The notes beneath the pieces are model-generated. The model was not told where the DNA came from and made no database searches. It saw only the letters and a list, made by a program, of their open reading frames with translations. From Candidatus Bathyarchaeota archaeon (GTDB lineage: Archaea; Thermoproteota; Bathyarchaeia; Bathyarchaeales; Bathycorpusculaceae): 64,000 bases of DNA. How positions within the stretch are numbered: the stretch's first letter is position 1; every line of letters begins with the position of its first letter. The position numbers were made by a program, and so were the translations under genes. Shown here one piece after another: positions 17,403-23,592 of this stretch. The DNA lies in NCBI GenBank assembly GCA_026014545.1, contig JAOZIH010000007.1, positions 1-64,000 of the forward strand, given 5' to 3'.

Positions 17403-18539
17403 CTATTGTCCTATGCCAATTGTGTTGCCTACGCCGAAAATGATGACTTTGTCACCTTCTTTGGTTCTCTCTAAAATAACGCTTTTCACGCGCTCAATTA
17501 CCTTGTCCACTGAGTCTGAAATTTCTTTGCGCATTGGCGAAACTGCGTCGCCGATGTCCTCCTTAACTATCACGGCATAAATTGGGATATGATAATCCAC
17601 TAGGGCCTCTTCAATCTTGTACTGATCCACGCCTGGTCCGCCGATTGCGGCGCCTACACCCTCGGCGACCTCGCCGACCATTTCGCCTTCAAGCTTCAAG
17701 CCCGCATCAATCATTATTACAGCCGCGATTTTCCCCTTATTCTCCTCGATAACCGCTTTTATGGCATCGCCTGGCTTGCCCACGTTGCCGCCTGGTCCTT
17801 CAGCCTTCATGATGAGCGCGGTGCGACCTTCTAATGGCACTTCGGCGACGACGCAATCTTTCGGCACCTTGCGTGTTTCGTAGCCATGCATAAGCTTCGC
17901 AGCTACCAGCGGGCCAACACCGTCGCCTATGGGCTGCCCATACGCGAAGGCTTTCAATGCGCTGGCGTACGCTTCTGCTTCCTTCATAACCAAGGGTAGT
18001 ATCATCTGCAGCTGCATTATGATGTAGAGACTTAGCGTTTTCTTGCCTTGAATGTAATAGTGGCGCACAACTTTGTAGATGTAGTTAAGCGCCATGGCTG
18101 CCTCCAGCGTGTTCTCCAGATTGTTCACTTGAACTTCGTCGCTTGCAGGCGCCATCAGCTTTACTTCGTCCTTGAGTCGCGTGTCTCTCACGTCAAGGAT
18201 GTGATCAAGCTTGTAAACGATGCCCGCGGGATCCATACTCTGCGGCGAAATTGTGAAATAATCCAGATAGCGATCAACTCTTGCGGATGGGTCGGTTTGC
18301 GGCTTTCCAAGCTCTTTTATCGTTTCTATCGCGATTCTTCGCCCTTCATCCTTTATGTACTTGAGCTTGTAAAGCGACCCTTCAACCTCGCGGATCATCA
18401 CGTACATTTGAATTCTTTGACCATAAAACAGGAAAACTATGAAGATAACATAGAATAGTATGCTTAGAATCTGCGATATACTGTCACCTGCCCCTCCTAA
18501 CTGACCTGTCACAGCGGGCAGAACTGCCAGCATGCTCAC
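17403..18539 (-). CDS. DUF1512 family membrane-anchored protein
   Basis: 378 residues. An N-terminal membrane helix (about 20-42, SQILSILFYVIFIVFLFYGQ) is followed by a large soluble domain. Recognisable segments are QRIQMYVMIREVEGSLYKLKYIKDEGR, PQSMDPAGIVYKLDHILDVRDTRLKDEV, GQPIGDGVGPLVAAKLM and VDQYKIEEALVDYHIPIYAVIVKE. I match these to the archaeal DUF1512 family, whose function is unknown. The start is GTG 18539 or ATG 18533. The zinc-ribbon membrane protein downstream may act with it. Confidence 0.8.
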   Translation of the reverse strand: MSMLAVLPAVTGQLGGAGDSISQILSILFYVIFIVFLFYGQRIQMYVMIREVEGSLYKLKYIKDEGRRIAIETIKELGKPQTDPSARVDRYLDYFTISPQSMDPAGIVYKLDHILDVRDTRLKDEVKLMAPASDEVQVNNLENTLEAAMALNYIYKVVRHYYIQGKKTLSLYIIMQLQMILPLVMKEAEAYASALKAFAYGQPIGDGVGPLVAAKLMHGYETRKVPKDCVVAEVPLEGRTALIMKAEGPGGNVGKPGDAIKAVIEENKGKIAAVIMIDAGLKLEGEMVGEVAEGVGAAIGGPGVDQYKIEEALVDYHIPIYAVIVKEDIGDAVSPMRKEISDSVDKVIERVKSVILERTKEGDKVIIFGVGNTIGIGQ

Positions 18540-18624
18540 GTTTTCACCACGTCTCCAAAAACATTCAGCACTAAGTTATAAATCTTAGCTAAATCTCCCT
18601 TTATCTTTCAGCGTTTAAGTGGGC

Positions 18625-18739
18625 TGCCAGCTTTCCCAGTTTCGCGTGGCCGAAGACCACACTACCGCTGGGAACGGAGCACGGTTTAACTTCTGAGTTC
18701 GGAATGGGATCAGGTGGAACCCGTGCCCTATGGCCGGCA
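18625..18739 (-). rRNA. rrf: 5S ribosomal RNA
   Basis: On the minus strand the 115-base sequence starts TGCCGGCCATAGGGCACGGG and ends GCTGGCA. The ends pair as helix I (TGCCGGC/GCTGGCA with one G-T pair). The universal CATTCCGAACTCAGAAGTTAA core is present. No 16S or 23S gene is nearby, so this is a dispersed 5S gene, common in archaea with unlinked rRNA genes. The exact ends could differ by one or two bases. Confidence 0.95.
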
Positions 18740-18937
18740 AACCCAGCAATACACGGCATTTTTCCTTCATTAACTTTTCGCTTTCAAGAATACTCACCGC
18801 ACCGTAAAACCCGCCAAGTCTCATTTACTAGCCGCGAGATTATCAGCTGAAGGCAATGCTGTCGTTGCCGCTGCTTATGCCGCAGTAGAGATAGAGGCTC
18901 TAAAAAACAGAAAAAGGAGGTGAGGGAAATTGACTTA

Positions 18938-19327: not shown

Positions 19328-19584
19328 TTTAATCCCCTCAAAAGTTTAGTTATCATTTGATTTTTGTTATAAATTTTGCGTTTAACAACGTTTACCAAAG
19401 CATTTTTAAAAGCTGATTTGCCTTTTGCGACGGCAAAATGGTCTTTTTCATAACAGCTACACCGCGCTTTTCTGAAAGCAGCTTCGTCTTACGCAAGAAG
19501 ATTTGATGAATATATTTTTATTTTGGACATTCAACTTAATCCATTCAGCATTGGCATGGAAAGGGGCTGTAGTCTAGGCAGGCA

Positions 19585-19659
19585 TGACGACGGGCTCCAG
19601 AAAGCAAGCACAACGGGTTTGCTGACCGCATGGGATGACGAAGTTCTGGAGCGGTCTTA
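19585..19659 (+). ncRNA. Candidate C/D box methylation guide within pre-tRNA-Trp
   Basis: Box-like elements in order are TGACGA (19585-19590, in exon 1), CTGA (19622-19625, D'), TGACGA (19636-19641, C') and CTTA (19656-19659, weak D). The guide before D', ACGGGTTT, is exactly complementary to AAACCCGT across the 3' splice site; the fifth base before D' pairs with C39. The second guide contains TTCTGGAGC, complementary to the anticodon region GCTCCAGAA. In haloarchaea the tRNA-Trp intron is known to guide methylation of C34 and U39. With CTTA as box D the fifth base would address C32 rather than C34. Confidence 0.6.
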
Positions 19660-19664
19660 GAGAA
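19601..19664 (+). other. tRNA-Trp intron 1 (canonical 37/38, BHB)
   Basis: Splice sites fit a bulge-helix-bulge. The 5' side is ACGGG-CTCC-AGA-AAG and the 3' side is CTT-AGAG-AAA-CCCGT, with three-base bulges AG|A and AA|A. The central helix is three pairs plus one C-A mismatch, so the motif is slightly relaxed. The intron also carries box C/D-like elements, described separately. Confidence 0.8.
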
Positions 19665-19670
19665 ACCCGT

Positions 19671-19700
19671 AGGAACGGCCAAGCGCCGATTTCCGGGTAA
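19671..19700 (+). other. tRNA-Trp intron 2 (43/44, BHB-like)
   Basis: The 30-base intron fits ACCC-GTA-GGAA on the 5' side and TTCC-GGGT-AAA on the 3' side: four-pair central helix ACCC/GGGT, bulges GT|A and AA|A, then GGAA/TTCC. Its own hairpin CGGC-CAAGC-GCCG lies inside. Removal gives a normal five-base variable loop AGGTC. No outer exon helix forms, so it is a relaxed BHB. Confidence 0.8.
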
Positions 19701-19739
19701 AGGTCGTCGGTTCAAATCCGGCCAGCCCCACCACCGCAT

Positions 19740-20200: not shown

Positions 20201-22234
20201 GTGAAAATATGTTCTGCCAACTTATATGGCCGCGGAGTTATCGTTGCCTGTTTAGTGATTACGTTTTTGTTAGCCTCTGAGTTGTCAATTGCTTTTGCTG
20301 ACTCCGGGGTGCCTGCTAACAACCAAAACATGGCTGAAGCGGCAGCTTTCATTCTGAGAGACATTTTAAACATTGATTTATCCAAGTACCCCTTTAAGGT
20401 CAGGTTTACTCCTGATGGCGAGTATATGGGGCTTCCTGAGAAGAATGTCGTCTTTACACTTGAACGTGACGGGGAATTCGCCGACTTCATATTCACCTTT
20501 ACTAGTGAAAGGCTCCGTTTATTAGACGCGTACGCGACCGATGGATTGCTATATTTATTGCCCAACAAAAGCGAGATTGACGTGGCTAAGAGGTTTTTAG
20601 AGAAGTGCCAAGACCGCTTCGGAGCCATGCATTACCAACCCATGATCAGCATTCTTGAAGGAATTAGAGACAAAGAGAACGTTACGACACTTTCTGGCAA
20701 CATCAAGTTCACGGCAACATATGGAAAAGTCCAAGACCTTGGCGATCGCTTTGTCGACTCAGTTGAGTACAGATGGACTTATGTGGTAAACGGCGCTGAC
20801 GCTCCACTGAAGTGCGTAGCTATGTGCATCAAGCGAGGCTACATGAGCTTCATAGACATGTGGAACTTCTATAGGATTGAAGGCGAGAAAATCGAAATCA
20901 CAAGGGAGAAAGCGATCGAAATAGTGACGGAAAATGCTCAAAGCGCTTCCTTCAAAGTATACGCTGGAAACGAAACGTGGATTGATGTGAAAGATTTTAA
21001 GGTGGCAAGCGTCAACTGGATCAACTTAATGTTCACTAATTATCCATCAAGCGGTGGGGCGCGTGGTGGAGACCCCTTAACACTTTACCCTCTATGGCGT
21101 GTCAACATATATTTCGACAAGCTATACCCAGGAAACATTTACGGAGCCAGCGTCGCAATATGGGCTGACACCGGCGAAGTCTGTGAAATCCAACCGTTAT
21201 ATATCATGGGAAGCATGTTCGACAATGAAATCCTAAGCAGCGAACTCTCGAACTCTAATGCTGAAGTAATACATTTGGTTCCAATTACCGAAGAACAGCA
21301 TGGCACCTCATTACAGCAAGTTTCATGGTTAACATCAGCATTAATCCCGCTTACACTAGGACTGGGGGTTCTAAGCATTCGCCGCCTCAAGAAAATAAGG
21401 CTAAATAACCATCTTAATGGAAAAGTTAGAAAACTAATCTTCGGCGGGATATTCTTTATCTCTTTAACTGCGCTTCAAGCAATTACCCCTGTAGCAAAGG
21501 CAGGAACTTACTGTATTGCATTTTATGGCTCACGATGGAATATGGCTGCAGAAGAAATCTCGTATGCTAAATATGTCATTGATAACGGTGAGATATGGTT
21601 TGGCTATGTAGGCTACACATGCTATGATCTATATGGTAGCCTAACGCAGAAGCAAGCAGTGTTGGATCACGCATCCTCTTTTGAACAATCTTTTGATCAC
21701 GTGGCAATGTTTCATCATGGGCACGGGGGTATGAACATGACGTATACGCAGCATCGGGACTATTTCGATGACGATGGACCTGAGCCACTGAGCAATCAAA
21801 TATGGGACTATGAGGTTGGGCAAAAAGCTTTGAAGAAACACTTTTTTGTAATTATTTGGGCATGTCGACAAGGAGATCATATAGGGGGACCAGATGGTCC
21901 GCTCGGCGTCTATGGAATGCCATATGCATGGCATAATCCTGTTGACAGCAGTGATTGTTTCATAGGATTTCGGGATGCATCAATGCCCCTTGCGCAAGCA
22001 TCTAAGCATAATACTCTCGTAAATTATGGCGTCTGGCTCCTTAGGTTCATCTATCACGCCACGTACAATAATCTCAGTGTGATAAGCGCTTTGAATCGTG
22101 CCTCCTATGACCATTTTGGGATTTCGTTCACCGATACAGAGCTTTGGCAGGGATTTACGGCGTATTGGCCAGGCATAGGCAACTGGATTGGCAAAATGGA
22201 AATATATGGAAACTGGTACATACACCTCTACTAA
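20201..22234 (+). CDS. Exported membrane protein with a caspase/gingipain-like C-terminal domain
   Basis: 677 residues. An N-terminal signal peptide (VIVACLVITFLLASELSIAFA) is followed by an extracellular region of about 350 residues, whose LYPLWRVNIYFD...YGASVAIWADTGEV resembles PepSY/YPEB-type repeats. Two membrane helices follow (about 378-396 and 411-432). The last 240 residues contain VAMFHHGHGG and then VIIWACRQGDHIGGPDGPLG, spaced like the His and Cys of clan CD peptidases (caspase, gingipain, legumain). Proteolytic activity is inferred from the motif pair only. GTG start with GGAG 8 bases upstream. The next gene is another exported protein 44 bases downstream. Confidence 0.7.
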   Translation: MKICSANLYGRGVIVACLVITFLLASELSIAFADSGVPANNQNMAEAAAFILRDILNIDLSKYPFKVRFTPDGEYMGLPEKNVVFTLERDGEFADFIFTFTSERLRLLDAYATDGLLYLLPNKSEIDVAKRFLEKCQDRFGAMHYQPMISILEGIRDKENVTTLSGNIKFTATYGKVQDLGDRFVDSVEYRWTYVVNGADAPLKCVAMCIKRGYMSFIDMWNFYRIEGEKIEITREKAIEIVTENAQSASFKVYAGNETWIDVKDFKVASVNWINLMFTNYPSSGGARGGDPLTLYPLWRVNIYFDKLYPGNIYGASVAIWADTGEVCEIQPLYIMGSMFDNEILSSELSNSNAEVIHLVPITEEQHGTSLQQVSWLTSALIPLTLGLGVLSIRRLKKIRLNNHLNGKVRKLIFGGIFFISLTALQAITPVAKAGTYCIAFYGSRWNMAAEEISYAKYVIDNGEIWFGYVGYTCYDLYGSLTQKQAVLDHASSFEQSFDHVAMFHHGHGGMNMTYTQHRDYFDDDGPEPLSNQIWDYEVGQKALKKHFFVIIWACRQGDHIGGPDGPLGVYGMPYAWHNPVDSSDCFIGFRDASMPLAQASKHNTLVNYGVWLLRFIYHATYNNLSVISALNRASYDHFGISFTDTELWQGFTAYWPGIGNWIGKMEIYGNWYIHLY

Positions 22235-22278: not shown

Positions 22279-23592
22279 ATGGAGTCTTCAATGAGAAGAT
22301 GCAGGGTTATATTCGTTTTGGCCTTTCTGTTGTCAACCTTTTTACTTCCCTGTTTCAGTGCGGATTCTGTTACTATATGGGTTCGGGAGCTTGGAGAGAT
22401 CGACCTTGGTATGACTCGCTCAGTTATAAGAACTGCTGATGGCGGATTTGCGGTTGTCGGGAGTAAAGATGGCGGCTTCCTACTTATGAAACTCGACCAT
22501 GAGGGTAACTTAGAGTGGGAGCGAGTGTATGGCGCGAAGGCCGAGTTCGCAAGTTTCGCCAACGACGCTCTGCAGACACCTGACGGCGGATTTCTGCTTG
22601 CCGGGCGTGGAACCCCTTGGCCACACTTTATGGGGCCGAATGGGACGCTCTTCAACCTAATAAAGGTTGATGCACACGGGAATTTAGAGTGGGAGCGTCT
22701 ATACGGAACAAGATCCATCGAGGATCCCTTTGTGGCTTACTCAATAGTTGAATCCAGCGGCGGATACACTATACTCGGGTACTCTGAGTCAAACTGGTCG
22801 CCCATAGCGAGTGGAAGCTGCAGAATAGTCCTGATAAAAATCGATGAGCAGGGAAATGTGCAGTGGAGATGCGAGTATCCAATCGAGGTGCCTTATGCAA
22901 ACGCATATGTTACTGAGGCGGATGACGGGGGGTACTTCATACTAACACTTGCGAGGTTTTACTACTATAACCACTTCTGCTACGACGACTGGGACTATGT
23001 GCTGATCAGAACCGACCCAGAGGGCAACATAATTTGGAAAAAACTATATAACTACACCCGGAGTGATGACCCCAAGGCCCTATTACCGACTTCAGACGGC
23101 GGTTTCGTGCTTGCCGGAAACGTCATCATCCATGAAGATAAGCTTAATTATTCAGTCATCAAGGTGAATAAGGTGGGAGAAGTTGAGTGGAACAGGGTTT
23201 ATAGTGGGTTTTTATGCTCAGCAACAACATTGAAGGATGAGGGGTACCTGCTTGCCACGAAGTCACTTTCAGGCGGCGTGATCCTCAAGATTACAACAGA
23301 AGGAGAAATCGAGTGGAGTGTCAAGTATGAAGGAGGCGACGAGCCCGCCATCATACCGTATCATGTGGTGGAAACGATGGATGATGCCTACGCCTTCACA
23401 GGAGCAAAAGTCGACAATCCCCAAGTTAAAGTTCTCGTTAAGTTTAAACCGCAAAGCCCGGGAAAAACCACAGAACCGTCAAAAGATTATATGGCGTTAC
23501 CAGCCACTATCACGGCGGTTGTAGCCACCACATCTATTATCATAGTTACAATAATAATTAACCTAAAGAAAAAAGGAAGAAAGTTATGCTAA
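22279..23592 (+). CDS. Exported beta-propeller-like surface protein
   Basis: 437 residues. It has a signal peptide (VIFVLAFLLSTFLLPCFS) and about seven repeats of 45-55 residues with the pattern T.DGGF...G...GG..L.K.D..GN..WE..YG (for example GGFLLMKLDHEGNLEWERVYG). A C-terminal membrane helix (TAVVATTSIIIVTIIINL) and basic tail KKKGRKLC follow. The repeats suggest a beta-propeller displayed outside the cell. No catalytic residues were recognised. Probably cotranscribed with the preceding gene. Confidence 0.75.
   Translation: MESSMRRCRVIFVLAFLLSTFLLPCFSADSVTIWVRELGEIDLGMTRSVIRTADGGFAVVGSKDGGFLLMKLDHEGNLEWERVYGAKAEFASFANDALQTPDGGFLLAGRGTPWPHFMGPNGTLFNLIKVDAHGNLEWERLYGTRSIEDPFVAYSIVESSGGYTILGYSESNWSPIASGSCRIVLIKIDEQGNVQWRCEYPIEVPYANAYVTEADDGGYFILTLARFYYYNHFCYDDWDYVLIRTDPEGNIIWKKLYNYTRSDDPKALLPTSDGGFVLAGNVIIHEDKLNYSVIKVNKVGEVEWNRVYSGFLCSATTLKDEGYLLATKSLSGGVILKITTEGEIEWSVKYEGGDEPAIIPYHVVETMDDAYAFTGAKVDNPQVKVLVKFKPQSPGKTTEPSKDYMALPATITAVVATTSIIIVTIIINLKKKGRKLC

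Follow-up and report, generated by a model that had tools for sequence, protein, structure and literature searches.

The self-guiding tRNA-Trp intron, described for Euryarchaeota, is a standard case of an intron with a function. In Haloferax and Pyrococcus, it is established that the intron guides the formation of Cm34 and Um39 (or Cm39) in tRNA-Trp (PMC7994747, PMC4090602, PMC6313347, PMC2584109), and for the haloarchaea it was argued that guiding takes place before splicing (PMC2584109). Self-guiding was reviewed for Haloferax and "other Euryarchaeota" (PMC11408192). By our reading, sR40 (Rfam RF01297), a four-box C/D RNA that fits the anticodon region of tRNA-Trp, is the Pyrococcus tRNA-Trp intron guide. 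In Sulfolobus acidocaldarius, Cm34 was detected in tRNA-Trp, and the predicted-guide targets cited for this species are tRNA-Gly and tRNA-Gln, not tRNA-Trp (PMC7668247). A circular tRNA-Trp intron was found in Sulfolobales (PMC12558985).

The window analysed here, the whole stretch of 64,000 nt from a Candidatus Bathyarchaeota archaeon, contains a tRNA-Trp gene whose first intron is probably a built-in 2'-O-methylation guide with a single K-turn, directed at C39 and C34 of its own precursor. The anatomy of the intron, the complementarity, its covariation, the conservation and the genes for the proteins were observed, and it is from these that we infer protein binding, methylation at positions 39 and 34, and action before splicing.

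The tRNA-Trp gene and its surroundings

The gene for tRNA-Trp(CCA), read directly from the sequence, lies at 19563..19733 on the + strand and has its CCA end encoded. The acceptor stem (19563-69/19723-29, GGGGCTG/CAGCCCC), the T arm (19706-22, GTCGG-TTCAAAT-CCGGC), the anticodon stem (19590-94/19666-70, ACGGG/CCCGT) and a D arm with TGAC at its end can all be recognised, and C34 and C39 are at 19597 and 19666. The boundaries of intron 1, which bears the guide, follow from this anticodon stem and the 7-nt anticodon loop CTCCAGA: it covers 64 nt (19601..19664, +) at the canonical position 37/38, and homologous introns are present in relatives. Intron 2, of 30 nt, interrupts the variable region at about 19672..19701 (+), and its boundary is uncertain by 1-2 nt because AGG/GG is repeated. 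It is missing from relatives such as L029, L033 and L040-L042, in which CCCGTAGGTC is uninterrupted (L029 and L033 read CCCGTAGGTCGTCGG). The gene was not called by ARAGORN, nor by the Rfam tRNA model at its gathering score, presumably as a consequence of the two introns. Rfam found no RNA at this locus at gathering score, and the tmRNA and plastid matches that fell below that score were weak and judged to be noise. Further introns occur in exon 1 of the tRNA-Trp genes of relatives, in its D-arm or anticodon-stem part, at 25/26 in L015 and at about 28/29 in L030, L033-L037, L043, L046 and L094, so that a single gene can have up to three. The gene seems to be prone to gaining introns.

The source genome comprises 1.86 Mb in 41 contigs. 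The DUF1512 protein encoded nearby (17403-18539) is closest, with identities that reach 98%, to proteins of Candidatus Bathyarchaeota MAGs, which places the window in the class Bathyarchaeia. A 5S rRNA gene (18622-18741, -, 75.4 bits) lies on the other strand, some 0.8 kb upstream of the tRNA-Trp gene, flanked by the DUF1512 gene and by an ORF for a membrane-protein-like product of 129 aa. Shortly 3' of the tRNA-Trp gene, two large + strand ORFs (20201-22234, 677 aa, and 22279-23592, 437 aa) resemble genes for secreted or membrane-anchored proteins. The genome also encodes the proteins of the box C/D RNP, with Nop5 adjoining fibrillarin, and two proteins of the L7Ae family. A scan of the whole genome with a strict four-box C/D pattern returned one match.

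Two guides on either side of a C'/D' hairpin

The layout of intron 1 is that of a self-guide, a 37/38 intron of tRNA-Trp(CCA) with guides that fit positions 34 and 39 and span the splice junctions. The D' guide ACGGGTTT (19613..19620, +) forms a duplex of 8 bp, free of mismatches, with target 2, AAACCCGT (19663..19670, +), which consists of the last two intron bases, A38 and C39-U43. G19617, the fifth base upstream of CTGA, faces C19666, which is C39, in agreement with what the earlier note had stated for this half of the guide. The same is true for the nine base pairs that the note had described between the second guide and the anticodon region: TTCTGGAGC (19644..19652, +) pairs across the 5' splice site with target 1, GCTCCAGAA (19594..19602, +), covering G31-C32-U33-C34-C35-A36-G37 and the first two intron bases. 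With the canonical spacing of 12 nt from C' to D, the fifth base of this guide faces C34 (19597), and with CTTA taken as box D it faces C32, so the shift of target calculated earlier was arithmetically right. The fifth-base register of the D' guide thus fits C39, and the second guide fits only by way of the 12 nt from C', without a box D. When the intron core was shuffled 20,000 times with its dinucleotides preserved, a complement of at least 9 to the 5' target was found in 0.21% and one of at least 8 to the 3' target in 0.7%; both together were found in none of the 20,000. Complementarity by chance is excluded, and the comparison with relatives argues this point far more strongly.

Between the guides lie box D' CTGA (19622..19625, +), an apical stem (19626..19633, +) with CC/GG around GCAT, and box C' ATGACGA (19635..19641, +), that is, the internal C'/D' K-turn or K-loop expected of an archaeal box C/D sRNA. 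Of 74 relatives from the order, 69 have CTGA or CGGA as box D', and C' reads ATGACGA or ATGAAGA nearly throughout the order, the latter in half of the relatives. The stem has only 2 bp and a four-base loop in the window, and it reaches up to 5 bp, with covariation, in relatives; there were 27 two-sided covarying cells compared to 8.9 after shuffling, and the third pair occurs as A-U, G-C, C-G, G-U, U-A and U-G. Covariation within the order is also seen in the 3b.3n pair of the K-turn, formed by position 5 of C' (19639) and position 2 of D' (19623), which is mostly C.U (27 of 74) or A.G (26 of 74).

A DNA search for the tRNA-Trp locus gave matches in 60 of 61 relatives' genomes, among them all 37 with a completeness of 90% or more and a contamination of 5% or less. 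The sR40 model turned out to be too weak for finding relatives, giving scattered matches (in the window 20.1 bits, E 0.067, for a gathering score of 50; above the gathering threshold in none of 101 genomes of the class), and we used our own model instead. This model of 80 positions, built from 41 introns of the order, found the intron in 163 of the 189 genomes from the class (in 113 of 120 when only good ones are counted) and, for the phylum, in 167 out of a sample of 299. We read 116 distinct candidate introns of tRNA-Trp, 107 of them with a recognisable D'-stem-C' hairpin; in 105 of these 107, C' agrees with the consensus at 6 or more of its 7 positions. Some 100 distinct tRNA-Trp introns, from Bathyarchaeia as well as other Thermoproteota, have both guides and the hairpin. 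Kinship was taken from the group label except for the named MAGs and the Sulfolobaceae (the f41 genomes), the latter being identified by the 7-kD DNA-binding family, which Sulfolobus acidocaldarius alone has among the named control genomes.

The comparison of introns in relatives for which the earlier note had called confirmed that compensatory changes maintain the complementarity. Where the D' guide is in register (92 introns), its duplex spans intron base -2 through nt 43 and breaks off abruptly, intron base -3 being paired in 3.3%. We then set each guide against its own target or that of another species, with 2000 shuffles; after swapping, the variable positions paired less often, to a degree beyond all 2000 shuffles, a significance that is overstated because the swap test and the shuffles ignore phylogeny, and several of the compensatory changes look independent. 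For the D' guide, pairing with its own and with swapped targets was 97.8% versus 74.6% at intron base -1 and 93.5% versus 74.5% at nt 43; for the second guide it was 87.1% versus 67.2% at i2 and 58.4% versus 37.1% at i3. All four bases are found at intron base -1, and for A, G, T and C the D' guide reads GGGTTT, GGGTCT, GGGTAT and GGGTGT, respectively; in L095, where the anticodon stem ACGGG has become ACAGG, the guide is altered to match. Covariation with the first intron bases is likewise seen in the second guide (CTCCAGAGC/GCTCTGGAG, CTCCAGCTC/GAGCTGGAG, CTCCAGTCA/TGACTGGAG and CTCCAGCGC/GCGCTGGAG), which is found exactly 12 nt from C' in 104 of 107 introns when the spacer is measured between the end of C' and the expected position of box D. 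The second guide also outlasts the D' guide, as it is kept in L190, L201, L202, L204, L218, L221, L225 and L228, which have no D' match. The D' guide is thus unmatched in some Thermoproteota, and position 39 is not a universal target.

Two loci depart from this pattern in other ways. One genome has two tRNA-Trp copies, L050 (G013:C15:24202-24281) and L007 (G013:C35), and in L050 the D' guide is ACGTGTTT in place of ACGGGTTT, which breaks a central pair. This pair of copies is either a natural test of action in cis or in trans, or a case of contamination. L032 (G032:C125:38613-38777) has a longer, diverged intron that keeps the hairpin and the second guide TTCTGGAAC and has a degenerate D' guide.

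The terminal C/D motif and the competing readings

All four boxes of the guide proposed earlier can be read directly in the sequence, ATGACGA at 19584-19590, CTGA at 19622-19625, ATGACGA at 19635-19641 and CTTA at 19656-19659. The idea of a self-targeting C/D guide survives in that it is borne by the intron, fits its own positions 39 and 34 and has conserved D' and C' boxes, but its two outer boxes do not. We consider it very unlikely that there is a four-box guide with box C in exon 1, CTTA as box D and a terminal K-turn formed across exon and intron, methylating C32 or C34. The exon ATGACGA (19584..19590, +) is contiguous in 53 of 74 order members and in 10 of 74 is interrupted further on by a 28/29 intron, which would favour such a guide. 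However, it consists of the D arm and nt 26-27, where the anticodon stem starts, and we judge it not to be part of the guide: it is broken in L062, L106, L125 and L233 (TTAAGACG or CTAAGACG) and in L234-L236 (TATTACGATGGG), an intron splits it in L015, and Sulfolobaceae lack it. All of these relatives keep both guides and the hairpin. The distance between the exon ATGACGA and D' varies between 28 and 61 nt, whereas that from C' to the place of box D is 12 nt. CTTA (19656..19659, +), claimed as a degenerate box D, is not conserved as one, since close relatives have CTTA, CATA, TTTA, CAGG or TAGA at this site, and a flanking stem is lacking. The C32 alternative needs CTTA as its box D and is therefore disfavoured, which leaves C34 as the better target.

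A terminal motif was also sought at the canonical places. In the window, the place of box C reads AGCAAGC and that of box D (19654-19657) reads GTCT. Among the 107 introns, neither a terminal box C (RUGAUGA) about 12 nt 5' of D' nor, at about this distance 3' of C', a terminal box D (CUGA) was found; exact CTGA occurs at the box D place in 0 of 107 and NNGA in 30 of 107. Many introns have only 14-18 nt 5' of D', which is insufficient for a box C and a guide of 12 nt. Box-C-like words in the intron ends were at the level of shuffled sequences, and across the circularised junction the best such word scored at least 6 in 13.1% compared to 12.4% after shuffling. A box D supplied by the circular junction was rejected as well, as CTGA follows the second guide in 2 of 107 introns where 3.2 were expected. 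As these two defining boxes are missing, we file the element as a reduced tRNA-Trp self-guide and not as a standard four-box C/D sRNA.

The missing motif may be explained in other ways. It seems unlikely that the motif comes from elsewhere, either from a second intron copy in a dimeric RNP or as a non-canonical K-turn with the conserved GAGA or NNGA close to the 3' end of the intron. Box C/D RNPs are able to assemble as dimers (PMC7089733), and the NNGA found in 30 of the introns would suit a non-canonical K-turn; on the other hand, GA near the 3' end is also required by the splicing motif, and a box C that would match is absent from both the intron and the circular junction. It is quite unlikely, too, that only the D' half is a methylation guide, for C39, and that the second stretch is an anticodon clamp that delays splicing and has no box D. 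The absence of box D from all 107 introns, the exact position of C39 under the D'+5 rule and the clash between second-guide pairing and the splicing fold are what such a clamp would predict. Against it stand the better conservation of the second guide, which persists where the D' guide is lost, its nearly invariant register of 12 nt from C', and the known Cm34 in tRNA-Trp of S. acidocaldarius. That the complementarity reflects nothing but the secondary structure of the intron, without a role in modification, we regard as highly improbable. Cis pairing of the guides is possible and the alternative folds have similar energies, yet this would leave the canonical C'/D' K-turn, the exact D'+5 and 12-nt registers, the similarity to sR40 and the known function in Euryarchaeota without a reason.

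Proposed mechanism and comparison with known systems

With intron 1 taken as a built-in guide, the D'-stem-C' hairpin would fold into a single K-turn that L7Ae can bind, and L7Ae, Nop5 and fibrillarin would assemble on this lone C'/D' K-turn. The strand 5' of the hairpin would pair with the 3' exon, with C39 at D'+5, and the strand 3' of it would pair with the anticodon, where the fixed 12 nt from C' would place C34, not C32. The sequence TTCTGGAG in a pre-tRNA-Trp intron would serve position 34 only. As both duplexes contain intron bases, guiding would have to come before splicing. Pairing of the second guide hides the bulge-helix-bulge that is needed for splicing, and so the two folds, which both need CTCC, are mutually exclusive; in calculated RNA folding the alternatives were similar (-28.5 kcal/mol free, -27.3 and -23.9 kcal/mol constrained). 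With its spacing to the second guide fixed, C' may be the ruler for position 34. In established work, the methylated base is set relative to box D (PMC7089733), and the setting of position 34 by a second guide without box D would be at odds with this. Methylation of the second target is held to be positioned by the terminal C/D motif, and an intron in which this motif is absent offers a clear test of what the box C/D RNP needs.

Self-guiding of tRNA-Trp is a known system; what is new is the reduced, phylum-wide architecture without the terminal C/D motif. Open papers gave no account of the Bathyarchaeia guides or of the loss of terminal C/D, and Thermoproteota may already be among the 29 archaea for which PMC2584109 lists introns of this kind. 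The presence of the same intron across Bathyarchaeia, Sulfolobaceae and other Thermoproteota indicates that it is older or more widespread than the open literature states. The tRNA-Trp introns of Sulfolobaceae share the single-K-turn anatomy, and their guides track their own exons (TTGGGTCT/AGACCCAG). The Cm34 detected in S. acidocaldarius tRNA-Trp independently supports C34 methylation in Thermoproteota, and the intron guide is a candidate source of it, one that open papers do not propose.

Judging from layout and sequence, the guide of intron 1 is homologous to Pyrococcus sR40 and to the haloarchaeal tRNA-Trp intron guide. With sR40 it shares the order of D' guide, D', C' and anticodon guide, and CGGGUUUGCUGACC is identical in the window; the Rfam consensus of sR40 has in addition AUGAGGA 12 nt 5' of D' and CCGA 12 nt after C', both of which are absent from intron 1. 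In Haloferax volcanii, too, a 37/38 intron of tRNA-Trp guides Cm34 and Um39 of its own precursor before splicing (PMC2584109, PMC7994747, PMC11408192), but that intron is 103 nt long and has both C/D and C'/D' boxes, whereas the one from Bathyarchaeia has 64 nt and C'/D' only. It is possible, although we hold this only tentatively and think it somewhat less probable than its opposite, that throughout Thermoproteota a tRNA-Trp intron with one K-turn methylates two sites and that the distance from C' sets the wobble base. If this is true, the accepted D+5 rule would be relaxed, and the guide with four boxes in Euryarchaeota and the half guide in Thermoproteota would be alternative states of one ancient intron.
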